The position numbers and the translations under genes are program-made. From positions 2,974,616-3,038,615 of the forward strand of contig CP054190.1 in the NCBI GenBank assembly GCA_015709575.1: a stretch of 64,000 nt of DNA. The letters run 5' to 3'. Positions 792 through 6,674 of the stretch are shown piece after piece. The notes under the pieces are model-generated. The model ran no database searches. It was not told the origin of the DNA and was given only the letters and a program-made list of their open reading frames with translations. The DNA is from Planctomycetia bacterium (GTDB lineage Bacteria; Planctomycetota; Phycisphaerae; UBA1845; Fen-1342). Numbering within the stretch: the first letter of the stretch is position 1; every line of letters begins with the position of its first letter.

Positions 792-820
792 GTTGGGTGG
801 CACGGTGTTGGGTGGCATGC
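792..820. repeat. left fragment of REP-like repeat copy A (cut by the IS)
   Basis: Bases 794-820 are identical to 2519-2545, the start of repeat copy B. The last 11 bases, GGGTGGCATGC (810-820), recur at 2282-2292 directly after the insertion sequence, which makes them the target-site duplication. Joined to 2293 onward, this fragment restores copy A. Confidence 0.85.
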
Positions 821-2281
821 AACGCCGTTCACTAAGCCGCTCCTTTTTCTTTTCTGAATGCCTGTGCTTTGCGGATTTCGGCCGTGGTTGCGGTGCGGAT
901 TCTGGGGGTTCCGGGGGGTGGTTCGGTTTTCTTGTGCGGCCAATCGCGGGCGGTCTTTGGTCGTCTGCGGAGGTAGAAGTCGGGCACGGCGGTGCGGAGT
1001 TGGCGCTGGAGCCAGTGTTTTCCCGTTGGGCGGCGGCCGCGCCGCATGGCGGTGCGGATCACACGCAATGCCGCGGCGGGTGAGATCAATCGCGGCGGCT
1101 GGGCGGCGTTGTGCGTCAGCAGGCTGATGAGCCACAGACCGGCCATCGACCAGTCGAGTTCGCACGCGGCCAGCTCCGGCGTTTGGGCGCGAAGCTTTTG
1201 CTTGCCCAGCGTCTGCTTCAGCGTGCGATGCATCACTTCCAGCGACCAGCGCTGCCGGTAGAGGGCGGCAACATCCGCAGCGCTGAGCCGCCGCTCGTCC
1301 AGCACGTTGGTCAGCAGCGCCACATGCTGTCGCCCCGCCTGCAACAGCACGAGTCGCAGCGTCAGCGGCGGCGTGCGGCGCTGCGTGTCGGGCCACAGAT
1401 ACACCACGCCCGCGCGCTCGCGCAGGTGGTAGCCGAGCTTGCGCAGCAGCGTCACATTCCGGCCGACGCGCACGATGAACGCATGGCCGCAGTTCTGCAG
1501 GCGCGTGAGCACGCGGTAGCCCACCAGCCCCGCATCGGTCAGCAGCAGCGTGCGCTCCGGCAACTCCGGCAGCATCGACAGCAGCAGGTCGCGTTCGCTG
1601 CCGTCGCCGCGCGTGCGCCGCCAGGCCCAGGGCAGGTTGCTGGCCACGTGATAGAGCGTGACCAGCAGCTGCTGCGGCGCGGTGCGCTGCTTGCCGGCGC
1701 AGCCGAACGCCTGCTCGTTCGCCCGCGTGCGCGGACAATTCACCCGCGAACCGTCCACGCCGAGCACCACCCAGTTCCGCCAGCGCCAACAGCCCGCGGC
1801 CGAGCGTTGCGTATGAGACCGCAGCGTCGCGACGAGTGGCCGCAGCAGCCGCGCCGAACGCGTCCGCCAGGCCTTGAGGAAGCCTTCGAGATGAGCGCCC
1901 GGCCGCCGCCGCGTCGGATACATCGCGACGATCTGCTCACGCATCGCCGCGAAGGCTTCGCGGAAAGAGGAGACCGGATGCCAGACCATCAGCAACAGGC
2001 CGATCAGCAACATCCGGTCGCTCCACCGAACGCGCTGATCCGACGAGCACAGCGGCAAACCGCTGACCGGGAGAAACTGTCGAATGGCGGAACGCAGCTG
2101 GGTGCAGTACGCTGAAGAACGGGTGCTCGTCCGTGAGCATTCCATCGCGGCCTCCGTTTGCTTGGTGTGGAAACCAAAGCCTAACGGAGGCCGTTCAATT
2201 TGGCGCGCCATACACCCGCTATAACTACCATGAATCACAAAGACTTATGAGCCGACTATCGGGCGATTGGTGAACGGCGTT
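821..2281 (-). mobile_element. complete IS4-family insertion sequence, 1461 bp
   Basis: Terminal inverted repeats start AACGCCGTTCAC at 821 and, on the other strand, at 2281; after a T/C mismatch they share AA. The element is flanked by an 11-bp direct repeat GGGTGGCATGC (810-820 and 2282-2292), a target duplication length typical of the IS4 family. Repeat copy B at 2519-2560 carries the same flanks with a single 11-mer, i.e. the unoccupied site. The single transposase gene nearly fills the element and its stop codon lies inside the left terminal repeat. The element looks intact and possibly recent. Confidence 0.9.
832..2145 (-). CDS. IS4-family DDE transposase
   Basis: Catalyses cut-and-paste transposition of the surrounding insertion sequence. 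The first catalytic Asp is in the LGVDGSRV motif, the second region is LLTDAGLVGY, and the C-terminal signature Y-x2-R-x3-E-x6-K is complete (YRQRWSLEVMHRTLK). The chosen ATG has AACGGAGG five bases upstream and gives 437 residues, a normal IS4 length. The frame stays open to 2238, where a longer start without a ribosome site is possible. The gene is uninterrupted and its TAG stop (832-834) sits within the terminal inverted repeat, so activity is plausible. Confidence 0.88.
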   Translation of the reverse strand: MECSRTSTRSSAYCTQLRSAIRQFLPVSGLPLCSSDQRVRWSDRMLLIGLLLMVWHPVSSFREAFAAMREQIVAMYPTRRRPGAHLEGFLKAWRTRSARLLRPLVATLRSHTQRSAAGCWRWRNWVVLGVDGSRVNCPRTRANEQAFGCAGKQRTAPQQLLVTLYHVASNLPWAWRRTRGDGSERDLLLSMLPELPERTLLLTDAGLVGYRVLTRLQNCGHAFIVRVGRNVTLLRKLGYHLRERAGVVYLWPDTQRRTPPLTLRLVLLQAGRQHVALLTNVLDERRLSAADVAALYRQRWSLEVMHRTLKQTLGKQKLRAQTPELAACELDWSMAGLWLISLLTHNAAQPPRLISPAAALRVIRTAMRRGRRPTGKHWLQRQLRTAVPDFYLRRRPKTARDWPHKKTEPPPGTPRIRTATTAEIRKAQAFRKEKGAA

Positions 2282-2502
2282 GGGTGGCATGCCTTCGCGG
2301 TACCCCGCGTAGGCATGCAGGGCACGTTGAGCAGAAAGTCCGGCGCCGTTGCATGCTCACGCTGCGTACAGCGAGAGCATGCCACCCAACGCTGCTTTTG
2401 TTCGCGACGTTGCATGCCACCCGCCGAGATCAACGACCGGTGGTTCCCGGAAATGGGGATCGTATCTGACGCTGTGCTGCACACGCCATGCGACGAAGGC
2501 GG
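2282..2502. repeat. REP/BIME-like twin-hairpin repeat, copy A
   Basis: Contains two 32-nt hairpins with the same geometry but different bases: 2287-2318 and 2351-2382. Each has an 8-bp outer stem bounded by GCATGC, one mismatched pair (T/T or A/A), a 5-bp inner stem and a 4-nt loop. The pair is enclosed by inverted 14-mers GTTGGGTGGCATGC (2279-2292) and its complement (2377-2390). Copy A has 35 extra bases (2388-2422), bounded by two direct copies of GCATGCCACCC, that copy B lacks. Several reading frames cross the region but all are repeat artefacts. Confidence 0.85.
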
Positions 2503-2515
2503 TCGGGTCGCATGG

Positions 2516-2724
2516 AGCTGGGTGGCACGGTGTTGGGTGGCATGCCTTCGCGGTACCCCGCGTAGGCATGCAGGGTACGTTGAGCAGAAAGTCCGGCGCT
2601 TGTTGCATGCTCACGCTGCGTACAGCGAGAGCATGCCACCCGCCGAGATCAGCGACCGGTGGTTCCCGGAAATGGAGATCGCACTAGACGCCATGTTGCA
2701 CACGCCATACGGCGAAGGTTGGGT
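2516..2724. repeat. REP/BIME-like twin-hairpin repeat, copy B (empty IS site)
   Basis: Nearly identical to copy A apart from a few substitutions and the missing 35 bases. The hairpins lie at 2540-2571 and 2605-2636. The 11-mer GGGTGGCATGC occurs once (2535-2545), showing the site as it was before the IS entered copy A. After 2724 the sequence up to the CAP gene at 2809 shows no further structure that I can identify. Confidence 0.85.
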
Positions 2725-2808: not shown

Positions 2809-3486
2809 TTACTTGCCGCCGCCGGCGGCCGACTCGAGCGGGGCGCCGAATTCCTGCACCCAGTAGAGGCCGTAGGTGCCGCCGGAGCGGATACCGACGC
2901 CCAGCTCGGTGAAGCGGCCGTCGAGGATGTTGGCGCGATGCCCGGGGCTTTCCATCCAGTCGCGGAAGGCCTCTGCGGGCGACGGCTGACCGGCGGCGAG
3001 GTTTTCTCCGACGACGCGATAAACGTAGCCGAACTGCTCCGCTCGCTCGGACAGCGTGGATTTCGTGACCGGGTTCACGTGCGCGAAGAAGTCGTAGTGG
3101 ATCAACTCGCAGGCGTATTCCTCAGCCTGCGCTTCCAGCGTCGCGTTGAACTTGACCGGGCCCAGGCCGCGCGCGACGCGCTCTTCGTTGACGAGGCGGA
3201 AAATCTCATTTCGCCAGGCGGCGGACTCGACCGGCTCGAGACACTGCGCGTACTTGGCCGTCAGGCCGTCGGAAAAGGCCGAACCGGCCGCGCCGGATCC
3301 CGCGGCGCTGGACGCGCCGGCGGTCTGCGAGCCGCTGAAGCTCGCGCCGGGCAGCGTGGTGCCGGAGCGGGAGATAGCGGAGGAGCCGGCGTCATCGTTC
3401 GGCACCGGACAGCCGCCGATGGGCAGGGCTGCGGCGAGCGCGAGCAGGACGGTTAGCGATCGGCGATGGAAGTGGCGCTGGACCAT
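2809..3486 (-). CDS. CAP/SCP-domain lipoprotein
   Basis: Secreted lipoprotein of the CAP superfamily (SCP/PR-1, YkwD-like). Its molecular role in bacteria is mostly unknown. The chosen ATG gives a 225-residue product with a signal peptide ending in the lipobox IGGC near residue 27. An Ala/Gly/Ser linker follows, then the CAP domain at about residues 90-215. The domain shows the usual landmarks: LVNEERVARGL, a His in the FAHVNP region, GENLAAG, and SPGHRANIL. Upstream the frame stays open to 3627, but that extension would put residues before a good signal peptide, so I reject it. Transcribed away from the PKD/WD40 gene. Confidence 0.85.
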   Translation of the reverse strand: MVQRHFHRRSLTVLLALAAALPIGGCPVPNDDAGSSAISRSGTTLPGASFSGSQTAGASSAAGSGAAGSAFSDGLTAKYAQCLEPVESAAWRNEIFRLVNEERVARGLGPVKFNATLEAQAEEYACELIHYDFFAHVNPVTKSTLSERAEQFGYVYRVVGENLAAGQPSPAEAFRDWMESPGHRANILDGRFTELGVGIRSGGTYGLYWVQEFGAPLESAAGGGK

Positions 3487-3662
3487 GTATTTTCGCTCCG
3501 CAGCGGCGTCGGCCCGGTACAAAATGCCGCTGGGAGTCAATATACCAAAAGTCCGTGCCGTTTCCCCACTTGATCCGACTCTTTGTCCGTCCCATACTTT
3601 GCGGGGCTTGCTGACGGACGAACCCACCCCCGGCTGCTGCCCGGTTATCAGGAGTTTCCCCG

Positions 3663-6674
<3,012 letters not shown>

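Follow-up and report, generated by a model that had tools for sequence, protein, structure and literature searches.

Two tandem copies of a twin hairpin near one end of the window (the whole 64-kb stretch of planctomycete DNA analysed) raise the question of what kind of element they are and by what they could have been spread. An earlier note, made from the letters alone, had read them as REP/BIME-like.

Hairpins of the window

Four hairpins were recovered at the positions given in that note, by a covariance model and by folding:

2282..2318, + strand: REP hairpin A1 with head (GGGTG plus a 32-nt hairpin), type CT-G, loop TACC; covariance model and folding.
2351..2387, - strand: REP hairpin A2 with head, type TC-T, loop TACG; covariance model, folding and pairing; with A1 forms inverted heterodimer (REPIN) A.
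2535..2571, + strand: REP hairpin B1 with head, type CT-G; covariance model and folding.
2605..2641, - strand: REP hairpin B2 with head, type TC-T; covariance model, folding and pairing; with B1 forms REPIN B.
2274..2718, no strand: tandem duplication holding both REPINs; 253-nt period, 219 nt for its 3' part.

The two copies form a direct repeat with an offset of 253 nt; the shorter period of the 3' part is due to extra inserted bases in copy A. In each copy the left hairpin is on the + strand and the right one on the - strand, 69-70 nt apart from start to start, and both pairs are edged by the inverted 11-mer GGGTGGCATGC to which the note had drawn attention. In the 5' to 3' direction of the strand on which it lies, each of the four hairpins has the layout GGGTG, GCATGCxx, T, CGCxG, TACx, CxGCG, T, xxGCATGC. 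The unit is therefore a 5'-GGGTG, an 8-bp stem, a T.T mismatch, a 5-bp stem and a 4-nt TACN loop, 37 nt in total. Single-stranded DNA folded in exactly the 8-1-5-4 geometry claimed beforehand, with T.T as the mismatch. Each hairpin reached -16 to -17 kcal/mol (0 of 200 shuffles as good) and carried an unpaired head on its 5' side only. The 116-nt pair was folded into a three-way structure in which both hairpins are closed by head-head pairing. The shared architecture with unlike bases seen in the note holds; it is better described as two compensated variants of one family (CT..CGCGG and TC..CGCTG), because the element is a heterodimer.

The four covariance model matches scored 62-64 bits each, and no other match of this strength was found within the 64-kb window. 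The model was built from the same hairpin family, so that these matches are not independent evidence; its in-house E-values are rough. No Rfam family gave a meaningful match to the hairpins. Restricted to the window, a search for the 11-mer with one mismatch allowed returned an unimpressive 6 sites against 2.6 expected; it is the genome-wide count that decides. Two tandem copies alone amount to one duplication, and the case against chance rests on the genome-wide counts. Elsewhere in the window, 3663-6674 (+) encodes a protein of 1003 aa that has PKD domains and a WD40 propeller; it adjoins a CAP-domain protein at 2809-3627 (-).

Genome-wide hairpin population

The 3.89-Mb genome contains the head GGGTGGCATGC 183 times without mismatch, and the reversed control twice; the head is thus far from confined to this locus, the outcome that the note had set against its own reading. 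Hairpins were counted in sequence stretches drawn around 11-mer matches, by which 181 of the 183 heads were recovered. Full hairpins followed 110 of these heads; 45 belonged to half-units followed by another head, 13 lay at IS ends, 4 stood beside short inserts and 9 were broken or other. The genome accordingly holds at least 110 full hairpins of the mismatch geometry, with identical hairpins at many distant sites. Simple tandem duplication, of the sort seen in the window, accounts for some of the copies.

Loci were chosen by the 11-mer only, and the seven inner stem positions, which fall outside that choice, paired in 94.6% of cases. When the 3' arms were re-dealt among loci (2000 shuffles), mean pairing was 82.7% and the maximum 85.8%. 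The T.T mismatch was retained in 109 of 119 cases and the TACN loop likewise in 109 of 119. The stem is therefore the variable part, its changes compensated across the two arms, and head, mismatch and loop are constant; uncompensated drift of the arms, the other contrary outcome foreseen, was not seen. The tetranucleotide GTGG, inside the constant GGGTGG head, occurs in nearly all hairpins.

Only 9 of the 110 hairpins overlap a predicted gene, though approximately 76% of the surveyed stretches is coding, and 101 (92%) lie outside genes, figures that are approximate since a home-made gene finder was used. Of the 101 intergenic hairpins, 36 are flanked by convergent genes and only 14 by divergent genes.

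Hairpins were seen to be much denser at 2.97-3.85 Mb and 0.18-0.81 Mb than at 0.82-2.96 Mb, with 31 in one 250-kb bin and none in another. There are also arrays of the 5' half of the hairpin only (GGGTGGCATGCCTTCGCGG plus 1-3 linker bases, period 20-24), with one complete hairpin last. In the source genome (G000) they comprise 45 half-units, up to 7 per array, e.g. at G000:C1:3170309-3170403, 3498305-3498425 and 3595501-3595651; similar arrays occur at loci L167 (genome G061) and L126 (G060). 3' halves are seldom repeated (4 junctions). The arrays possibly stem from slippage at the hairpin.

Inverted pairs

The main stem types are CT-G (52 hairpins), TC-T (30) and TT-G (22). Twenty-nine close inverted pairs were found in the genome, most of them 67-69 nt apart. 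CT-G was joined to TC-T in 24 of these pairs, 28 contained exactly one CT-G, and there were no homodimers; the observed number was reached in 0 of 10000 shuffles. The inverted pairs are heterodimers, as are the E. coli Y/Z BIMEs and several of the families presented in the main text of PMC3733652.

IS4-family element and small inserts

Two insertions that the note had passed over, an IS abutting A1 and a 24-bp insert in the foot of A2, account for the following further features:

821..2281, - strand: IS4-family IS of 1461 bp in the foot of hairpin A1, with terminal inverted repeats AACGCCGTTCAC; insertion point, DDE_Tnp_1 and NCBIfam IS4.
832..2238, - strand: IS transposase gene, 468 aa; translation, DDE_Tnp_1 and NCBIfam IS4.
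810..820, + strand: left copy of the 11-bp IS target duplication GGGTGGCATGC; the right copy is 2282-2292 (A1 head and foot).
2388..2411, no strand: 24-bp imperfect palindrome with IS-like tips (AACG...CGTT) in the A2 foot; across the genome, similar 23-mers are confined to hairpin feet.
2412..2422, - strand: second copy of the 11-bp head flanking the 24-bp insert; target duplication of 2377-2387.

The transposase matched DDE_Tnp_1 and scored 137.4 bits with NF033592 (cut-off 115), and the IS4 motif Y(2)R(3)E(6)K was read as YRQRWSLEVMHRTLK. All 11 complete genomic copies of the IS (1456-1465 bp) sit at one identical insertion point. Both flanks are exactly GGGTGGCATGC in most copies, and two copies have one flank GGGTGCCATGC; from this constancy the 11-mer is read as the target duplication. 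Target duplications of the IS4 family are about 9-13 bp long. Relatives of the IS, with ends resembling AACGCCGTTAAC, abut GGTGCCA or GGTGGCA heads in G053, G055, G068, G102 and the MAG DeMMO2_2, whose sequence is shared with G094. Preference for GGTGSCA heads is seen in other genera too. The REP head serves the IS4-family element as target; the element rides along with the REPs and does not move them.

Palindromes of 23-24 bp of the form AACGCCGC-N7-GCGGCGTT, with IS-like tips, were noticed beside the 11-bp head, mostly with a head copy on both sides (window 2388-2411; G000:C1:226434, 271970, 389633, 1108896 and 1989302). Exact genome matches of the small palindrome were at hairpin feet in 4 of 4 cases. 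They are candidate tiny IS remnants or excision scars.

RAYT of the source genome

A RAYT-type Y1 transposase, which the note had suggested looking for, was found at G000:C1:3638131-3638733. The gene is intact, with an uninterrupted frame of 201 aa, and its product scored 86.2 bits with NCBIfam REP_Tyr_transpos (NF047646; cut-off 80). The translation contains the motifs EHVH, FWQ and YVHANP (Y1 HUH: HxH and catalytic Tyr) and matched the solved TnpA_REP 4er8 weakly (E 0.013). GGGTGGCATGC hairpins lie on both sides of the gene; they are of type TT-G and arranged in tandem, not mirrored. The CT-G/TC-T pair of the window may depend on another or a lost RAYT.

This gene was missed by PF01797 (Y1_Tnp) and recovered only with the protein of a second RAYT, at G000:C1:350078-350578, as query (44% identity between the two). 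The PF01797 search of the source genome returned three Y1 genes, each amid other palindromes; none is flanked by GGGTGGCATGC hairpins, and all three were rejected as the cognate enzyme. The second RAYT (L076, about 3079-3634), itself among those three Y1 genes, is flanked symmetrically by GGTG-headed GGTGCCACTGCTCTTCCTGGAGCAGTGG / GGTGCCACTGCTC hairpins, and its C-terminal end looks frame-shifted by eye. An IS200-like Y1 gene at G000:C1:621339-621677 (L075) lies amid long GTTGGGCGTCGCGCGCCG-type repeat arrays and CCCAGGGCGTTGCCCTGGG palindromes.

RAYTs and hairpins in relatives

With the covariance model, the hairpin family was detected in 58 of 114 genomes of the order, some with more than 50 matches. 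Relatives carry other stems on the same head, e.g. GGGTGG-CATGGCC-T-GGCG-TACT-CGCC-T-GGCCATG-C, in which the T.T mismatch and the TACT loop survive the change of stem.

The nearest relatives of the RAYT at 3638131-3638733 are in G058 and G061 (66-69% identical), with fragments in G023; fragments are also present in G016. The RAYT genes of G058, G061 and G023 sit between mirrored hairpins of the same family as those of the window. These stretches were fetched for their hairpins, which biases toward nearby hairpins, and more weight is therefore given to a count over 78 RAYT loci from the order and phylum, most of them fetched by RAYT protein. Mirrored GTG[CG]C-headed hairpins stood on both sides of the gene at 49 of these 78 loci, against 16 of 1000 random window segments (1.6%) and 0 of 25 IS200-like Y1 loci. 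In G035 and G059, hairpins are present and no RAYT was found with the query used. The Y1 gene of G060 (L126), which lies amid hairpins, was not counted as cognate, being IS200-like with palindromes of its own.

The source RAYT clusters with those of L158, L166 and L167 (support is 98 once L211 is included in the set), and all have a CATGC...TACT hairpin. Distances between hairpin stems correlated with those between RAYTs (rho 0.41, 0 of 2000 permutations; 0.47 without the largest clade). The hairpin stems follow the RAYT tree, a pattern of co-diversification. EHVH was found at 54 and FWQ at 66 of the 78 loci, and no row of the motif table in PMC6006769 matches.

Interpretation and alternatives

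The hairpins are very probably REPs in REPINs (BIME-like heterodimers), each single-stranded hairpin being recognised by a RAYT, and the IS4 element a separate entity. The REP/BIME-like reading of the note is supported by copy number, covariation, intergenic siting and RAYT linkage. Its term "selected element" is borne out as regards a maintained structure, which is to be read, by analogy, as maintained for RAYT recognition; benefit to the host forms no part of the reading. Binding, cleavage and transposition are attributed to this RAYT from the biochemistry of others. TnpA_REP binds REPs in their folded, single-stranded form and cuts on the 5' or the 3' side of the structure (PMC8266576, PMC6006769); the E. 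coli enzyme depends on the irregularity of the stem and makes use of the tetranucleotide at the 5' end (PMC8266576). If the present enzyme works like that of E. coli, the single-stranded hairpin would be the unit recognised by the HUH/Y1-type RAYT at G000:C1:3638131-3638733. This RAYT would contact the folded strand through its 5' head, T.T mismatch and TAC loop, cut close to the foot of the hairpin, and transfer or copy the single-stranded REPIN into new sites, most of them intergenic; the source would probably be DNA that becomes single-stranded during replication. The element would thus probably have been spread by a dedicated single-strand DNA enzyme.

GC-rich intergenic hairpins, more often placed between convergent than between divergent genes, would also be expected of transcription terminators or RNA 3'-end structures dispersed for serving genes. 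It is the unpaired 5' head, the mismatch and the loop that are constant, however, none of which a terminator needs. By eye, the hairpins of the window are not followed by a run of T; Rfam gave no match, and head and stem type track a transposase. We regard this explanation as highly improbable, while a secondary terminator-like use could coexist with the REP/RAYT explanation. Still harder to credit is that the 11-mer and hairpins are part of the IS4-family element, or MITEs moved by it. The IS always adjoins the 11-mer, and 13 heads abut IS ends, but the majority of hairpins have neither an IS nor an IS end in their vicinity, and many genomes in which no copy of the IS was found (G020, G023 and G058, for example) contain the hairpins. 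Moreover, inverted repeats AACGCCGTTCAC that belong to the IS itself lie inside the 11-mers, and the 11-mer stands on both flanks as a direct repeat, like a target duplication.

A family that was once mobile, is now immobile in this genome and multiplies by local duplication only is less improbable than these two and nevertheless unlikely. Local tandem duplications are many, the RAYT at 350078-350578 looks frame-shifted near its C-terminus by eye, and G016 and G023 hold RAYT fragments. Against this, the RAYT at 3638131-3638733 retains its full frame with EHVH, FWQ and YVHANP, and identical hairpins lie at widely separated sites. REP/REPINs served by a RAYT are the preferred reading.

Relation to known systems

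The closest parallel is E. coli REP/BIME (y, z1, z2) with TnpA_REP (group 2 RAYT, subclass 2.2), which shares the long hairpin with a conserved stem irregularity, the 5' tetranucleotide head, heterodimeric inverted pairs, intergenic siting, hundreds of copies and a REP-flanked RAYT (PMC8266576, PMC6006769). The planctomycete head is GTGG within a constant GGGTGG, whereas that of E. coli is GTAG; the irregularity is a single T.T mismatch here and AA-GC in E. coli; and the enzyme motifs are EHVH / WQ / YVHANP as opposed to DHLH / WE / YIHYNP. Of the features of REP/REPINs, the following were found: an imperfect palindrome (about 20-65 nt), a GT[AG]G foot on the 5' side as specified in PMC6006769, high copy number, extragenic position, regular inverted pairs and a RAYT flanked by REPs. 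The GTGC head variant used by relatives falls outside GT[AG]G.

According to the main text of PMC3733652, GTAG-20 and the GTAG-superfamily repeats are likewise tagged stem-loops, some with GTGG and some obligate heterodimers; the superfamily is known from the PVC superphylum, with GTGG variants in Opitutus terrae. Neither the extended head GGGTGSCA nor the T.T/TAC hairpin was found among the families in that main text. A third tag class beside GTAG and CGTC was considered for the head and dropped, as GTGG is already known (PMC6006769; main text of PMC3733652); only the GTGC of relatives departs. The class 3 TnpA_Y1 elements of Planctomycetes also combine HUH enzymes, flanking hairpins and high copy number, but have a CnGA foot and the motif NHVH / W[TA] / YV..EQ (PMC6006769), in contrast to GTG[GC] and EHVH / WQ / Y.HANP here.

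REP-targeting ISs are known in ISRm22 (IS4 family), ISPpu9/10, ISPsy8 and ISPa11, all copies of which lie at one exact REP point (PMC1525189). The present IS differs from ISRm22 in its 11-bp duplication over head and foot, that of ISRm22 being 6 bp at the palindrome axis (PMC1525189), and from the known REP-targeting ISs in that the same head preference recurs in its relatives of other genera. No description of the hairpin family was found in the open-licence papers searched. The family itself appears to be undescribed, while the REP/REPIN-RAYT type, the GTGG foot, heterodimers and RAYT flanking are already known; the more novel side is the widespread RAYT group and the IS specialist.

Implications

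On balance, and with considerable reserve, we favour the view that Planctomycetota harbour a widespread unclassified RAYT group (mostly EHVH / FWQ / Y.HANP) with the REP head GTG[GC]C, often GGGTGSCA, and freely changing stems, that an IS4-family lineage has specialised on this head across genera, and that enzyme, substrate and hyperparasite diversify together. The REP-RAYT partnership is extended to a deep, little-studied phylum by 49 matched enzyme-substrate pairs, which form a ready data set on how RAYTs read head, mismatch and loop. The IS is a clear case of a lineage that exploits REP heads, and does so in several genera. In annotation, these frequent hairpins of planctomycetes call for further evidence before they are taken as regulatory RNAs.
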